The notes below the pieces were generated by a model. The model was not told the DNA's origin and did no database searches. It saw only the letters and a program-made list of their open reading frames with translations. From an uncultured Roseburia sp. (GTDB taxonomy: Bacteria; Bacillota; Clostridia; Lachnospirales; Lachnospiraceae), in assembly GCA_947644305.1 (NCBI GenBank), contig CANRYS010000025.1, positions 1 to 36,551 of the forward strand: a DNA stretch of 36,551 nt, written 5' to 3'. A program made the translations under genes and the position numbers. This document shows positions 29,557 through 36,551 of this stretch, piece by piece (the first letter of the stretch is position 1; each line of letters starts with the position of its first letter).

Positions 29557-30521
29557 CTATGCACACCATTTTTCTTTATATTTGTTTATTCGTTTGTTTT
29601 CAGGAATCGGATATTCTCTTGGCAAATCAGAAGCCAGGGCTTCCTGCCACACTTCTAATGGGGTTTTGCAATGGTATCTGTCCTGTGGACACTCTTCACT
29701 GTAAAACCGTAGATAGTCTTTGATTGCATATCTTAATGAAGCTTCGTCCGTTATTTCGTACATCTGATACATCTCCGCTTTCATAATTCCCCAGAATCCT
29801 TCCGTTGGTCCGTTGTCAATGCAGCGCCCAACTCTGGACATGGATTGCTTCATTTCTTGTTTTTCAAGTTTTCTCTTAAACACCTTTCCGGTGTACTGGA
29901 ATCCCCGGTCAGAATGAAAGATGGGTTTGACATCAGGCCACGCTGCGGTTGCTTTGTCAAATGTTTTAAATACCAGTCTGTTATCATTCCTTAAACTGAC
30001 AACATACGCAACAGGATATCTGTCATACAGATCTAAGCCAACGCTTAAATATAGTTTCTTTTTTCCGCCGGTCACTTTAAATTCCGTCACGTCAGTGGCC
30101 CATTTCTGATTAGGGGCGGAAGCGTAAATGTCCCTTTGAAGTATATTTTCCGCCGGTTCATCAGGTTTTGCGTATGTATATTTTTCTTCTTTTTACGGAT
30201 CACCGAATGTATCCCCAGTTTCTTCATGATTCTGTGAATCCTGTTTTTACTGTATGCAGTTTGGTTAAAGTGATTGATCCAGGATGCCATTCTTCGGTAT
30301 CCCAGGATATGATGGAAACGCTCATCATACTCTTTAATCAGTTCTGCGAGTTTGATATTTTCGCATTCTGCATCAGGGATTTCCCTATGCAGCCATTTAT
30401 AGTAAGCCGCCCTTGATATTTCAAACTGTTTACACATCCATTCTATACTCCAGCCTTTCTCTGCGTGAAAATGTCTGACCGTTAAATATTTAGATTCATG
30501 GCGTACTTTGCCGAGCCTCAC
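29557..30521 (-). pseudogene. IS3-family transposase OrfB (DDE integrase), frameshifted
   Basis: OrfB starts at a GTG (30521) overlapping the OrfA stop in the -1 frame. It has HTH_21-type sequence (SIEWMCKQFEISRAAYYKWL, GYRRMASWI), then the rve domain with WATDVTEF, HSDRGFQYT and DNGPTEGFW supplying the DDE residues. The frame breaks near 30181-30185: with five As the frame runs on for about 25 codons to a stop, while a sixth A would give KYTYAKPDEPAENILQ and join both parts. It is probably a one-base deletion. A -1 ribosomal slip there would also restore the frame, but the site (G AAA AAT) is poor. Confidence 0.8.
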
Positions 30522-31195
30522 ATCCTTTCGAATTCTTTCACTTTTTTTAACAGTTCAACCACCATATCCTTTTCTTCCAACTGGCATTTTAACCGTAGGT
30601 TTTCACGTCTTAACCATTCCAGTTCATCCACTTCATCATCTGTTTTATGATGCCCCCGCTTATCCGTCAGCCCCTCTTCTCCATTCGCATCATATTTCTT
30701 TACCCATGAATAAACCTGACTGTAAGAAACGTCATACTTTGCTGCCGTATTCTTATAATCACGGTTATGGTTTATACAATAATCAACGATTTCTTTTCGT
30801 TCTTCTATAGTTGTTTTTCTCCGTGCTTCTGCCATATAGACCTCCCTTTCAGGAACATAGCCCTTCAGTTCTCTATTGGCATTATAACACTGAATCCAGT
30901 TATTCAAAACCGCCCAGTTAGAAATGTTGTATCTGGCAACGATTTCATCCCGGGACATTTCACCGGATATATACAGTTCCACACAGTTCATTTTGAATTC
31001 AGCGGTATAGGTGGCATTTCCGGAACCACGTTCAAAAGCAGCGATTCCCTGCTCATGATAACGCTGTGCCCAGCGCCGTACAGTTCTGTCATTGATTCCA
31101 TATCTTTTGGCAATGTCTGGCGATGGCGCCTTTCCGTCTAAATACTCTTTGGCTACCATGGCCCTCCATTCAGGTGTATGCGGTGATTTGGCCAT
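30518..31195 (-). CDS. IS3-family transposase OrfA
   Basis: A 225-residue DNA-binding subunit with three helix-turn-helix segments: SPDIAKRYGINDRTVRRW, SRDEIVARYNISNWAVLNNW and TAAKYDVSYSQVYSWVKKY. It ends in a leucine-zipper-like stretch (ENLRLKCQLEEKDMVVELL) used for dimerisation and for contact with OrfAB. Near its end TTA AAA AAA G (A7 at 30542-30548, in frame as A AAA AAA) is the classic slippery heptamer for -1 frameshifting to make OrfAB. The start at 31195 has AAGG 8 nt upstream. OrfA is intact. Confidence 0.88.
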   Translation of the reverse strand: MAKSPHTPEWRAMVAKEYLDGKAPSPDIAKRYGINDRTVRRWAQRYHEQGIAAFERGSGNATYTAEFKMNCVELYISGEMSRDEIVARYNISNWAVLNNWIQCYNANRELKGYVPEREVYMAEARRKTTIEERKEIVDYCINHNRDYKNTAAKYDVSYSQVYSWVKKYDANGEEGLTDKRGHHKTDDEVDELEWLRRENLRLKCQLEEKDMVVELLKKVKEFERM

Positions 31196-31278
31196 AAAAA
31201 ATACCTTCAAAGCAGATTTTATTTATTTACTCTGTCTACTTTAGAGGTATCATATCATTCTACGGGCTTTTTAACAAT

Positions 31279-31471
31279 TTATTCCTTACACAATGTTTTG
31301 GCATATTCCAAAGAATCTCTGATGATTCTTTCCAAGTATTCTTTCTTGGATAAATCCCCTAAATCGTGGAATACTGCCGAGTAAGCGACAAGCGCAGTCC
31401 GGACATACGTGCTATGTTTCTCAAAAATTGTTCGGTCAATGGGGATCGGGATATACATATGGATCAAGCAT
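31279..31471 (-). pseudogene. internally deleted Fic-type toxin remnant
   Basis: Seven nt after the antitoxin stop an ATG opens MLDPYVYPDPH and then hits a stop. The DPYxYP start is typical of small bacterial Fic proteins. In another frame the following sequence reads DRTIFEKHSTYVRTALVAYS then AVFHDLGDLSKKEYLERII, which looks like a Fic C-terminal helical tail. The whole catalytic core, including HPFxxGNGR, is absent. I read this as a fic gene that lost some 100 or more codons by internal deletion, leaving both ends. The DPYVYP start and position support it; the tail assignment is less sure. Confidence 0.5.
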
Positions 31472-31477
31472 CCTGCT

Positions 31478-31633
31478 TTACCTTATACTTTTTGTCAGAT
31501 ATTTCTTTAAATCTTCCGTAGTGGCTTGCCCGTTTTTTTCCAATTCAATATATTTCTTAAAATCTTCAGTTGGTTCCAGCCCATCCACTTTAATCATACC
31601 AATGGCATAATCCCAAGCCGCATCTACTGTCAT
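31478..31633 (-). CDS. VbhA-like antitoxin of a Fic toxin
   Basis: A 51-residue protein: MTVDAAWDYAIGMIKVDGLE, then PTEDFKKYIELEKNGQATTE and a basic end. It matches the VbhA pattern of an N-terminal helix with A-x-x-(S/I), then (E/D)GLEP, a helix, and G-x-x-T-x-E-D. VbhA-type antitoxins block the ATP site of the partner Fic AMP-transferase. GGAGGAG precedes the ATG at 31633. It is intact although the toxin after it is not, so it may serve as a leftover or act in trans on another Fic protein. Confidence 0.6.
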   Translation of the reverse strand: MTVDAAWDYAIGMIKVDGLEPTEDFKKYIELEKNGQATTEDLKKYLTKSIR

Positions 31634-31742
31634 ACAAACTCCTCCAATCAATTCAATTATCTTTAGTATACCACATTTTATGGATAAATACCATAATGTA
31701 TCTGCTATTTTAACGGATATTACTTTCTCCCCTCTCACATGA

Positions 31743-32423: not shown

Positions 32424-33430
32424 TTAGAGCAACCGGTTTTCCAGCCGTTCTTCAAAATAGATCTCAAGCTGGGAATGGATCTGGCCCCAGTCCTGACGGT
32501 GGCCTGTCCACTTCTTTGTTATATCTATCGTTGCCAGATACAGCATTTTTAATAGACTGTTATCGGATGGAAATATGGTCTTGGATTTTGTCACCTTTCT
32601 CAGCTGGCGGTTGAACCCCTCAATGGCATTGGTCGTGTAGATCCGACGTCTGACCGCTTCAGGTACTTGAAATACATGAACAGGGTTGCCCATTTTTCAG
32701 ACCATGATCTATCTTCCACTCCGCGATTCTTAAGTCCATTCATGATAGACAGCCAGAACTTGGCACTTTCATTTTCTCCTACATACATACCCAAAACATC
32801 TTTATGTCCGCTCATATCAATTCCCAGGGCAATATAAACCGCCCGTTTCACAATCCTTCCTTCACTTCGGACATGATAGTGGATAGCGTCCATGAAAACA
32901 ACTGCATAGATTTCTTCTAATGGGCGTTCCTGCCATTCTCTTACCACCGGCATAATCTTATCCGTAATGCGGCTGACGGTGCTGTCCGAAATGTCGATAT
33001 CATAGAGTTCCCTCATATGGGATTCGATATCGCCGGTAGTCATACCTTTTGCATACATAGACAGGATTTTTTCTTCCATATCCTGAGTTACGGTGTTCTG
33101 GTATTTTTTGATAAGCTTTGGTTCATAGTCACCGTAACGGTCGCGGGGAATTGACACATCCATGTCTCCATAGCTGGTGTGCATGGTCTTCCTAGAGTGT
33201 CCGTTGCGGCTGTTGTCTGTGTCCTTGTTGCGGTAATCATACTTGGAATAACCGAGTTCTTCCTCTAACTCTTCATCCAGGACACCTTCCAGAAGTACGG
33301 ACATCATGTCTCTCATAACAGAGTTTACATCCGTTCCATTTTTGATGCTGATATCGTTGTTTTTGAGATAATCGTGTATCATTTCCCGCATTGCTGCTTT
33401 TTGTGGGCTGTCTCCTTTTCTTCTTGCCAT
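32424..33430 (-). pseudogene. IS256-family (Mutator-type) transposase, doubly damaged
   Basis: The N-terminal part starts MARRKGDSPQKAAMREMIHD (GGAGG before the ATG at 33430) and includes the first catalytic Asp in VVFMDAIHYHVRSEG. After NGLKNRGVED the sequence jumps to RSWSEKWATLFMYFKY: about 70-75 residues are missing, including the segment with the second catalytic Asp (normally VDGLxGF). Then a one-base loss after FKY shifts the frame; the correct frame resumes as PEAVRRRIYTTNAIEGFNRQ with the catalytic Glu and runs to the normal C-terminus. It cannot make an active enzyme. Confidence 0.9.
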
Positions 33431-33502
33431 AAATAAAACCTCCAAACTAGTAATTACATCTTACACCAGTTTAGAGGTTTACACAAACTTTGGGATTCTC
33501 CC

Positions 33503-33642: not shown

Positions 33643-35697
33643 TTATTCCTTTTGGGCAATCACAGCCAGCCAATTTACTACATTATCTTTTCGTTTTTCT
33701 ATCTCTTCTGTAATTGAAAGAATAGTAAACCCATTTCTCTTTACAACTTCTGAAAGTATCTCTTCTGTATAGAATTGGAAAACCCGTCCTCCCAATCCCT
33801 CATTGGTATCAACAAACTCTAAGGAAAAACCTTTCTTTACAAAAATGTAAATCAATCCTCCTTTTTTTAACACTCTAAAAGATTCACTAATGGCTTTATC
33901 AGCCATATATCCCTTGCCTATTAGTGGCAAATGTAGAATAGATGCATTTTGACGAACAACATCAAAACTATTATCAGGAAAATCAAGCATACGCATATCA
34001 CATTTCTTATAAGAATCCTTTGAAATTTTTCCCTGTTGCTCAAGTTGGCATAATATATTTATAAATCCATCTGAATTATCAATCCCAATAGTTTGATATC
34101 CTAACCCTGTTGCATACATGATATCTCGTCCAGACCCAGTAGCTACATCAAGCAACTTAATAGGTCTTTCAGCAATATGTTTTTCTATATAACTTGATAG
34201 CATATTCCACATTTTTATATCTAATTCATGGGGTTCATCATGGCGCAATTCCCGGTATGAAGTACACATTCTATCATAGGTTTTCTTCGTTAATAACACC
34301 AACTTTTCTGCGATTAGTTCCATCTCCTGATAAATTGGTCGTTTATTTCCATCGTATTTATCTAATTGTCCTTTCATATAATTAAAGTTATCAATCAATT
34401 TTTGCGGATCATCCGTATTTAAATTGTCGATGTGAGCTGATATTGTATTCATAGAAACTTTTACCCTCCTTTTATCAAAAATCATTTCTTTAGAATTATG
34501 CTTTTCAATGCCAAAATAACTATATTCATATGGTTGCTGAAATAAAAATATAAGTGGATATTTTGAAGAATCAAAACCAGATGTTATTTCACTTAAATAT
34601 CGAGCTACTATAAATGAATAAAACACCTTATTGCAAAGAAATCCTTGTGTCATTTCGAATATTCTGCATCCCTTCATAACACAAAAATCTGCATGTACAA
34701 TAGATGAAATCACTTCATTTGAGAGTTTTTTCAAATTTATAGCTCCCATTTTGGGGCCTTTTTTATTAATCAACAATCTGCCTGTGGAGATTGCATTACC
34801 TAAATCGCTAAATATTGAAAGTTGAAGTGCTTTTTCTAGTTGTTGCCATGACATATCATTCCCATAAATTCCATTTTTCGGTATTATTTCTATAACAACA
34901 TTATATTTTTTTAGAATTCTATTTATTACATACAAATCAAAATATGTTTCAATATAGTCATCTGTAAACCATACAACTTTTTTTGCTGATTGTATATTAT
35001 GTATAAACTCAGCATAATGGAATACTGGAAATGTGCATTTCCCCAAAATGGTAAGTAATTTATCAAGATAATCTCTTGATGCTAAGTCAGGTTTCATAGA
35101 AAAATATTGCCTCATCGGTATCCCCATGTTGGAATACTTTGATGATGCTGCTGGAGCACCTTTTAAATCCAAACCTGACAAACCACTAACAATAGATAAC
35201 TTAAGTAGCATTTCATCCGAAAAAGGCATTTTACTTTTTTCTATTGTCTTAATAACTATTGGCATCATTTCGCTTGCGAGATTATTAAAAATTTTTGCTG
35301 TGTCTATTTCATGATTGACATCATTAAATAGTGTAAATGCTATTACCCTCCTTATTACATCAATAAATTCCTGATTATAAATTTGCTCCTTCAGTTTTTT
35401 TCCACAATATTTATAATCCAACAAAATCTCCAAATTTTCTTGAACATATGAGACAGCATTATCAAAGTTATCTTGCAAATCAATTTCATTTAGAATACTA
35501 TGTATCATCTCAAGAACCCATTTATTGTAAGATATATCATCAAAAAAAATCAAGTCCTTTTGTATCAACTTGTCATTTACTGTAAATGTTTCAGGCAGAT
35601 AAGGATAATCTTCGTTATTATCCTTATTACATTGGTCAGAACAGATAAAATCCTCTATGTTTTCACTGAGATAAGTTTTGGATAATTTATATAACAT
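33643..35697 (-). CDS. putative DUF89/ARMT1-like domain fused to a class I SAM methyltransferase
   Basis: A 684-residue soluble protein. The C-terminal domain (about 490-684) is a Rossmann methyltransferase: motif I LLDVATGSGRD (515-525), acidic GID540, CDMRMLDF, and RVLKKGGLIYIFV. The N-terminal part (about 60-390) is mostly helical, then alpha/beta, and I read it as DUF89/ARMT1-like: VVWFTDDYIETYFDLYVI resembles D-N-x-G-E-x-x-x-D-L, IYGNDMS the metal-binding N-D-x-T, and ADFCVMKGCRIFE the K-G-x-x-N-F-E motif. The family's DN is DD here. DUF89 enzymes are metal phosphatases acting on damaged sugar phosphates. AAAGG overlaps the stop of the upstream gene, 8 nt away. The gene is strongly AT-rich, unlike the left side of the window. 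The methyltransferase call is secure; DUF89 is moderate. Confidence 0.65.
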   Translation of the reverse strand: MLYKLSKTYLSENIEDFICSDQCNKDNNEDYPYLPETFTVNDKLIQKDLIFFDDISYNKWVLEMIHSILNEIDLQDNFDNAVSYVQENLEILLDYKYCGKKLKEQIYNQEFIDVIRRVIAFTLFNDVNHEIDTAKIFNNLASEMMPIVIKTIEKSKMPFSDEMLLKLSIVSGLSGLDLKGAPAASSKYSNMGIPMRQYFSMKPDLASRDYLDKLLTILGKCTFPVFHYAEFIHNIQSAKKVVWFTDDYIETYFDLYVINRILKKYNVVIEIIPKNGIYGNDMSWQQLEKALQLSIFSDLGNAISTGRLLINKKGPKMGAINLKKLSNEVISSIVHADFCVMKGCRIFEMTQGFLCNKVFYSFIVARYLSEITSGFDSSKYPLIFLFQQPYEYSYFGIEKHNSKEMIFDKRRVKVSMNTISAHIDNLNTDDPQKLIDNFNYMKGQLDKYDGNKRPIYQEMELIAEKLVLLTKKTYDRMCTSYRELRHDEPHELDIKMWNMLSSYIEKHIAERPIKLLDVATGSGRDIMYATGLGYQTIGIDNSDGFINILCQLEQQGKISKDSYKKCDMRMLDFPDNSFDVVRQNASILHLPLIGKGYMADKAISESFRVLKKGGLIYIFVKKGFSLEFVDTNEGLGGRVFQFYTEEILSEVVKRNGFTILSITEEIEKRKDNVVNWLAVIAQKE

Positions 35698-35705
35698 ACG
35701 CACTT

Positions 35706-36500
35706 TTACCTTTCTATTTTTTGAGATGAATCTTTTCCCCATAAATAGTCAAAATAATCATTAACAACATTATATCCGTGAGAACCCTTTCTAAAAACAA
35801 TAAGCGGAAGCCTTACTGGAGCTTCTTGGGATAAAATATTAGGGGAGAAAAAACACTTTTCTGGAAATATAATTGCTGTACAATAAGGTGCTTCTATAAA
35901 ACGCTTTCCATCTATTTTATCATCTCCATACCTACTTTTCAAAAGCTTAATATTATCAATAGTTGCTTGCATATCTGTAATTATTGTAGGTGGTGTCATA
36001 TTGGGCGATTCCAATACCCCTCTATTTATTGTTTCAGGTGCCTCATTGGAATTTATAAGCGCCTTTATCTTAACTTGAGGGAACTTCAACAATTCTGTTA
36101 TAGGACCATAAAAAGTAAGTTTAGTGGGATTGAAAAAGACTCTCAAACTAACGCCAACGAACTTTATTTCGCCTCTTTTATGATTGATGAATTCCCTTAT
36201 CAAAGCATTTTCACCATTATCCTCTCGTTCAGATTTCTCACGATCCTTATAAACTCTTACAATTCCACCATCTAAAAAATCTTGATAAAATTCATTAATA
36301 ACATCGAAATCCTTTTTCTTTAAGTATTTATCAGTGTATTGTCCTACTAAAATCGGAAAAAGAAAACATGATGATAAATTTGTTAATATAATCATAGCAA
36401 TAGTAAAAATAAGACTACTTTCCACAAAAAATGACAAAATTATTGCAAGAATTAACGTGGATGCAGAAATACTCATAGTCCATATCGTCCTACTTGTCAT
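35706..36500 (-). CDS. two-TM membrane protein with PLD-like soluble domain
   Basis: A 264-residue protein. Two hydrophobic helices (about 9-27 and 30-52) form a hairpin; the rest faces the cytosol. Residues about 78-254 alternate strands and helices as in PLD-like sensory domains: GGIVRVYKDRE, EIKFVGVSLRVFF, VKIKALINS..R, ICTAIIFPE-type strand near 207-213, and a C-terminal FDYLW. I see no HxKxxxxD catalytic motif, so it is more likely a sensor or effector than a phospholipase. The ATG at 36500 is supported by GGAG 6 nt upstream. It is the first gene of an operon with the DUF89-methyltransferase protein and is equally AT-rich. Fold assignment is by pattern only. Confidence 0.55.
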   Translation of the reverse strand: MTSRTIWTMSISASTLILAIILSFFVESSLIFTIAMIILTNLSSCFLFPILVGQYTDKYLKKKDFDVINEFYQDFLDGGIVRVYKDREKSEREDNGENALIREFINHKRGEIKFVGVSLRVFFNPTKLTFYGPITELLKFPQVKIKALINSNEAPETINRGVLESPNMTPPTIITDMQATIDNIKLLKSRYGDDKIDGKRFIEAPYCTAIIFPEKCFFSPNILSQEAPVRLPLIVFRKGSHGYNVVNDYFDYLWGKDSSQKIER

Positions 36501-36515
36501 ATTAATCTCCATTCC

Positions 36516-36534
36516 GCCGCCTTCGGCTGGCGGC
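36516..36534 (-). repeat. GC-rich hairpin just upstream of the PLD-like gene
   Basis: GCCGCC (36516-36521), 7-nt loop, GGCGGC (36529-36534). It is a striking GC island in an AT-rich locus, 16 nt before the start codon. It may be a terminator end of the preceding gene outside the window, or a dispersed palindrome. Confidence 0.4.
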
Positions 36535-36551
36535 ACAAATAGTAATGAAAG

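Follow-up and report, generated by a model that had tools for sequence, protein, structure and literature searches.

What might a protein that joins a DUF89-like domain to a methyltransferase be doing beside a small membrane protein? The question is raised by two genes at the right end of contig CANRYS010000025.1 (assembly GCA_947644305.1) of an uncultured Roseburia sp., whose entire length of 36,551 bases is called the window here; the region upstream of the partner gene lies outside view. Both open reading frames (ORFs) are open and intact on the minus strand, to which all coordinates within the pair refer. The upstream gene (35706..36500, ATG start) encodes the partner, a 264-aa protein (276 aa if the GTG at 36536 serves as the start) with two transmembrane (TM)-like segments and a phospholipase D (PLD)-fold domain lacking the HKD motif. 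It is followed by a gene for a 699-aa DUF89-like/methyltransferase fusion protein (33643..35742). We are very confident of this anatomy, and of that of the relatives described below. Tentatively, and with somewhat less than even confidence, we regard the pair as the central part of a small-molecule signalling system that is rare, has moved horizontally and most likely serves defence or stress.

The DUF89-like domain was assigned from several lines of evidence. The match of the window protein to PF01937 (E 1.5e-4, 21.5 bits) lies below the gathering score of 25, and that to NF040824 (E 4.8e-9) is likewise below its cut-off, while phmmer against PDB entry 2g8l gave E 1.2e-5. Kinship with DUF89 is nevertheless secured, because the predicted fold of about residues 64-405 (34528..35553) matches that of DUF89 and three relatives exceed the PF01937 cut-off (60.4 bits on contig L031, 43.2 bits on L050 and 36.1 bits for the second copy on L032). 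A DUF89-like order of motifs had been read in this region in the preliminary description of this DNA, and TDD..FDL, GND and KGCRIFE do stand at the aligned positions of the DUF89 motifs. TDDYIETYFD (residues 260-269; 34936..34965) occupies the position of the DN motif, with Asp as its second residue where ordinary DUF89 proteins have Asn; GND (residues 294-296; 34855..34863) is the second conserved acidic motif (NDAT in ordinary DUF89), and KGCRIFE (residues 357-363; 34654..34674) corresponds to KGQGNFE. The window protein also has an extra N-terminal region relative to the DUF89 phosphatases.

These changes are shared by a distinct branch. In a tree of 46 sequences (seven from this branch, and 39 ordinary DUF89 proteins of 250-360 aa taken from the fetched loci; L046, of 247 aa, and a fragment from genome G1728 were excluded), the seven-member branch was monophyletic with a support of 0.996. 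The DN present in 39/39 ordinary proteins is DD in all seven members, with the first Asp retained. Six of the seven, the window protein among them, retain the Asp of the ND motif; the Asn of KGxxNxE is absent from the window protein and from six of the seven overall, being retained in a fusion protein of a Solibacter genome (G196), and in six members the helix motif, (G/A)N..D in ordinary DUF89 proteins, is (S/A)GxxGxD. The presumed metal site would therefore be largely retained but altered. Because the branch is monophyletic and its motifs are altered, the window protein is, as judged by alignment and tree, a derived sister of the DUF89 phosphatases and not an ordinary damage-control phosphatase; phosphatase activity of the domain is possible by the same comparison. 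The interpretation offered in the preliminary description, a metabolite-repair or phage-response system sensed at the membrane, is supported in part.

The second half of the fusion protein is a predicted S-adenosylmethionine (SAM)-dependent methyltransferase (residues 445-698; 33649..34410), whose motifs had been called explicit and are recognised by PF08241 (Methyltransf_11) over residues 531-633 (E 6e-14, 52.9 bits against a cut-off of 21.2). The assignment of the fold rests on sequence profiles, because this half was modelled badly (almost all of residues 407-622 have a pLDDT, the model's local confidence score, below 50). Its best PDB sequence matches are phosphoethanolamine N-methyltransferases (E 1.2e-6). 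Residues 445-698 are 42% identical over 263 columns (BLAST E 2.5e-62) to a free-standing methyltransferase of an archaeal genome (G1156), in which genes for DUF89-like, methyltransferase and TM-PLD proteins lie separately within 6 kb; for this reason we take the fusion to be natural, and we rejected an assembly accident, since the split genes argue for a real association. The idea that the methyltransferase represents the activity once reported for ARMT1 was also rejected, as it is a separate domain.

The partner agrees with what had been proposed for it, namely a two-TM protein with a PLD-like domain devoid of HKD. A Kyte-Doolittle scan found TM-like segments at residues 16-34 and 35-53 (36342..36455), and a structure model with structure search, made for the window partner only, placed a PLD fold over residues 76-259 (35724..36275). 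The catalytic motif HxKxxxxD is absent from 8/8 partner proteins, one of which (that of G1582) is not proven to be PLD. A PDB sequence search with the partner gave no match better than E 0.11, and the structure search returned the sugar-binding domain of TrmB (2f5t), TrmBL2 and the DUF1669 domain of FAM83B, all of which we take to lack HKD. The title of the TrmB PDB entry shows that a PLD-like fold is able to bind sugar.

The same DUF89 branch recurs at other loci with PLD-fold relatives whose attached part varies (one, two or four TM-like segments, or TIR). These relatives form two groups, PLD-A, to which the window partner belongs, and PLD-B. In G032, of the same genus, overlapping genes encode a DUF89-like protein, a two-TM PLD-B protein and an HD-like protein. 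In G1156, from the class of the Methanothrix genome, the order within 6 kb is methyltransferase, two-TM PLD-A, HD-like, two-TM PLD-B and DUF89-like; the window and G1156 domains are 39% (DUF89), 42% (methyltransferase) and 38% (PLD) identical. The two HD-like proteins are 31% identical and owe their label to a subthreshold PF01966 match of the G032 protein (E 0.07) and to conserved H and D residues; a PDB sequence search with their alignment gave no convincing match, and neither the own genome nor the plasmid records searched contain a match for this protein. The Methanothrix genome itself (G195) encodes a DUF89-like protein, a phosphoglucose/phosphomannose isomerase and a four-TM PLD-A protein. 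The same three-gene set is found in G1728, where only one TM-like segment was called for the PLD protein and the contig end cuts off part of the DUF89 gene. The isomerase genes of these two archaeal genomes (L031 7363-8463 and L094 5286-6422; 58% identical) lie between the DUF89-like and PLD genes.

The two remaining loci carry TIR domains. G196 encodes a 799-aa TIR-PLD-DUF89 protein without a TM-like segment (TIR_2 E 1.8e-31; the PLD part identified by BLAST to the G1156 PLD-B protein, E 6.8e-6), followed by genes for NACHT-HEAT and metallophosphatase proteins and by another DUF89-like gene, which is truncated at the contig end. PADLOC recognises the TIR part of this protein (SAVED_TIR and ThsB models). 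In G1582 a HIT-family gene (L075 2-541; PF01230 E 3.2e-5) lies directly upstream of a divergent DUF89-like gene, which is followed by a gene for a protein with a C-terminal TIR domain (TIR_2 E 1.2e-11).

Is the association of this branch with PLD-fold proteins more than chance? PLD profiles run over 94 loci and the window matched only at loci of the branch; most of these matches are profile members, matched by construction, and the kinship rests on BLAST. With the window PLD-A protein BLAST gave E 9e-51 for G1156, E 7e-16 for G1728 and E 5e-11 for G195, and the PLD-B proteins of G032 and G1156 match each other at E 7e-40. The PLD gene of G1728, which is not in the profile, scored E 6e-52. PLD-A and PLD-B were found to be related (hhalign probability 96.6, E 5e-10) once the proteins of G1728 and of a viral contig (L095) had been added. 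A relative of the PLD partner is fused to the DUF89-like gene or lies within 1.6 kb of it at 6/7 branch loci. The control, ordinary DUF89 loci, had flanks of up to 1.5 kb, and with equal 1.5-kb flanks the partner was present at 4/7 branch loci and 0/39 ordinary ones.

Three further proteins were considered in this context. The IMG/VR contigs L095/L096 (7278-8636) encode a 452-aa protein with an N-terminal domain, a TM-like region and a PLD-B domain, which extends to the sequence end and whose neighbours include genes for a phage integrase, a C5 DNA methylase and a NYN-domain protein; its N-terminal domain was taken by eye for TIR, and this was abandoned, because neither Pfam (at E<=0.1) nor a small TIR profile matched it. 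A TIR protein (H7) of a Rhodoferax plasmid was dropped as a second TIR-PLD protein, being matched by neither PLD profile. Finally, the N-terminal domain of the G1582 TIR protein, which resembles PLD by eye (hhalign E 0.02; score 22.3, where 60 composition shuffles reached at most 19.8), was not counted.

The distribution of the branch was followed in 1,991 genome look-ups, centred on known carriers and not a random sample. A protein search of 195 relatives yielded 64 with a match; in G000 and G032 the match includes the DUF89 part, and in the remaining 62 it is confined to residues from about 405 onwards. In the genus (39 genomes) the own genome and G032 gave strong matches and one genome a weak match, so that the branch is present in 2/39. 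Strong matches were limited to the own genome in its family (299 genomes, 19 weak matches) and phylum (398 genomes, five weak), and to G196 in its order (230 genomes, with the divergent G1582) and phylum (347 genomes, one weak). G195 and G1156 stood out in the class of the former (237 genomes, two weak), and G195 in its phylum (236 genomes, with the G1728 fragment and 38 other, weak matches). The 39 weak matches that were fetched carry ordinary DUF89 motifs (the unfetched ones and G286 are outside this count), and two of them were confirmed by Pfam (E 4.5e-46 and 6.8e-43). A scan of genome contigs found L031 (metagenome-assembled genome of Methanothrix sp.) and L032 (metagenome-assembled genome of Ca. 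Solibacter sp.). The gene pair has a GC content of 0.31 (0.23-0.24 at third codon positions, GC3), and five left-side genes, named housekeeping by eye, have 0.42-0.51 (GC3 0.40-0.55), which agrees with the difference in base composition noted before. We count the low GC content and the presence of the branch in only two genomes of the genus in favour of horizontal movement, and the pair is probably rare and horizontally acquired.

The signalling reading is suggested by this anatomy, in which small-molecule enzymes stand opposite a receptor-like, non-catalytic domain whose attached parts are exchangeable. In its favour we count the monophyly and shared motif changes of the branch, the partner association and the exchange of parts. 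Genes for small-molecule enzymes (HD-like, sugar-phosphate isomerase, HIT and metallophosphatase) occur near the branch loci. The path from ligand to effector is inferred throughout. The two enzyme domains, DUF89-like and methyltransferase, would set the level of a phosphorylated ligand, sugar- or nucleotide-like, by producing, altering or destroying it, and the PLD-fold domain may bind this ligand, by analogy with the binding of sugar by TrmB. Binding would switch the effector joined to the PLD-fold domain, acting by membrane disruption in the TM forms and probably by NAD+ cleavage in the TIR forms; phage infection, for example, is a candidate trigger. The isomerase neighbours point to sugar phosphates, and known DUF89 enzymes act on fructose-1-phosphate and oxidised phosphopantetheine (PMC8669784). 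Cell-suicide defence is suggested by the TIR domains at two of the loci and the NACHT gene at one. A more specific proposal, which we consider somewhat unlikely, is that of an undescribed prokaryotic immune family. In it a derived enzyme of the DUF89 type, helped by methyltransferase, HD-like or sugar-phosphate isomerase proteins, would handle a phosphorylated sugar-like signal sensed by non-catalytic PLD-fold receptors, and these would fire TM-pore or TIR effectors.

Several observations weigh against the signalling reading. The plasmid and phage records contained no match to the DUF89 branch, only methyltransferase matches, and the plasmid records none for the PLD partner. Five of six viral-contig scans, which sought only a few short peptide patterns, were empty; in the sixth, two contigs turned up that carry a single PLD-B protein near a contig end, without any DUF89 gene in the stretch in view. 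PADLOC had no match for the window partner, and the remaining window genes read as housekeeping genes and insertion sequence (IS) elements. As regards DUF89, the G032 protein has no PF01937 match at E<=1, the G196 fusion is under the cut-off, and the G1582 protein, which has lost the second acidic motif, has no match at E<=0.1. As regards the partners, smaller alignments of the two PLD groups gave no significant likeness (probability 3.7), those of G195 and G1728 lie at a distance of about 1.5-1.6 kb, which reaches or exceeds the limit of the control flanks, the PLD domain at the seventh locus (G1582) is unproven, and the G1156 PLD-A gene (L050 1154-2103) looks frameshifted near its 3' end, with the C-terminal piece in another frame. 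The isomerase gene present at both archaeal loci may simply have a housekeeping role.

Alternatively, the pair could be a sugar-phosphate or nucleotide stress module outside immunity. Here the DUF89-like domain would clear a harmful phospho-metabolite, which the methyltransferase would cap and whose level the PLD-fold protein would signal at the membrane. We hold this to be unlikely, given the TIR fusion and NACHT neighbour in G196, the presence in so few genomes of the genus and motifs unlike those of ordinary DUF89 proteins. The overlapping genes in the window and G032, the direct fusion in G196 and the constancy of the DUF89 part next to an exchangeable attached part would also suit a toxin-restraint pair, with the TM (or TIR) PLD-fold protein as a toxic effector held back by the DUF89-like protein through binding or destroying a ligand; this is distinctly unlikely, since the enzyme genes common to the loci (methyltransferase, HD-like) suggest chemistry over simple restraint. 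Very improbable is an envelope- or lipid-modifying operon, in which the two enzyme domains act on phospho-headgroups and the PLD-fold protein is a membrane lipid-binding subunit, for although the phosphoethanolamine N-methyltransferase matches and the TM-like segments of the partner fit it, the TIR-PLD-DUF89 protein has no such segment and the catalytic HKD is absent.

The proposed signalling system resembles several known ones in part. TM- or TIR-SAVED proteins of CBASS, and Thoeris, are effector-sensor immune proteins, which likewise join an exchangeable TM or TIR effector to what is probably a ligand-binding domain, with a small-molecule enzyme encoded nearby; here the enzyme is DUF89-like and the sensor PLD-fold, and the proteins scanned had no PADLOC match to cyclase, SAVED (beyond the TIR part) or Sir2. 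TIR is present at the G196 and G1582 loci only. With the DUF89/ARMT1-like damage-control phosphatases (PF01937; 2g8l, 2ffj, 1xfi, 6umq) the window protein shares the predicted fold, the first Asp of DN and the ND motif, and differs from them in the change of DN to DD, the loss of the helical (G/A)N Asn and, in 6/7 members, of the KGxxNxE Asn, as well as in its separate clade, its extra N-terminal region and its PLD-fold partner. The partner itself has the predicted fold of PLD superfamily enzymes without HxKxxxxD, as do the binding domains of TrmB, TrmBL2 and FAM83B; the partners here are joined to TM segments or TIR and not to a DNA-binding domain. The only PADLOC match of the long protein was to mad2 of MADS (PDLC04134, E 2.1e-12), over the methyltransferase region (residues 517-682; profile 281-427 of 492), and MADS membership was rejected, as this match is partial and the partner matches no mad or other PADLOC model. 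The PLD proteins of G1156 gave weak PADLOC matches to two defence candidates (E 0.003 and 0.016). The other genes of Mokosh and Azaca are helicases, which the window pair lacks, and its partner is not matched by PADLOC. What both systems share with the pair is a PLD-like domain, described there in phage defence (PMC10952713). Among the literature matches listed, in a search which mostly did not extend to subscription papers, we found none on DUF89 in defence or conflict, none pairing DUF89 with a defence island or ARMT1 with anti-phage activity, and, with coverage incomplete, no description of the present gene arrangement.

Between the pair and the left-side genes lie an IS3-like set (29557-31210) and a Mutator/IS256-type transposase in two overlapping, apparently broken frames (32424-33445), and the IS elements reported earlier beside the pair are therefore real. 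The "toxin debris" reported with them was probably two short ORFs (31279-31738); it is not confirmed, as neither ORF has a Pfam match at E<=0.01. The 8-nt gap between the two genes of the pair applies if the fusion gene starts at the alternative ATG at residue 16 (35697); if the first ATG is used instead, the two genes share 37 nt. A GC-rich inverted repeat (gccgcc-ttcggc-tggcggc; 36515-36537) lies at the contig end, upstream of the ATG of the PLD gene, and may be a repeat at which the assembly broke off.

The known role of DUF89 proteins is that of phosphatases in metabolite repair, and an altered clade found with membrane and TIR proteins would show the recruitment of this fold into signalling. 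The modular nature of the loci (fused, split, TIR and TM forms) makes them a directly testable set. If the PLD-fold domain does bind a phosphorylated sugar or nucleotide, this would reveal a new class of second messenger, whose chemistry would differ from the established cyclic-nucleotide and ADP-ribose routes and be common to bacteria and archaea.
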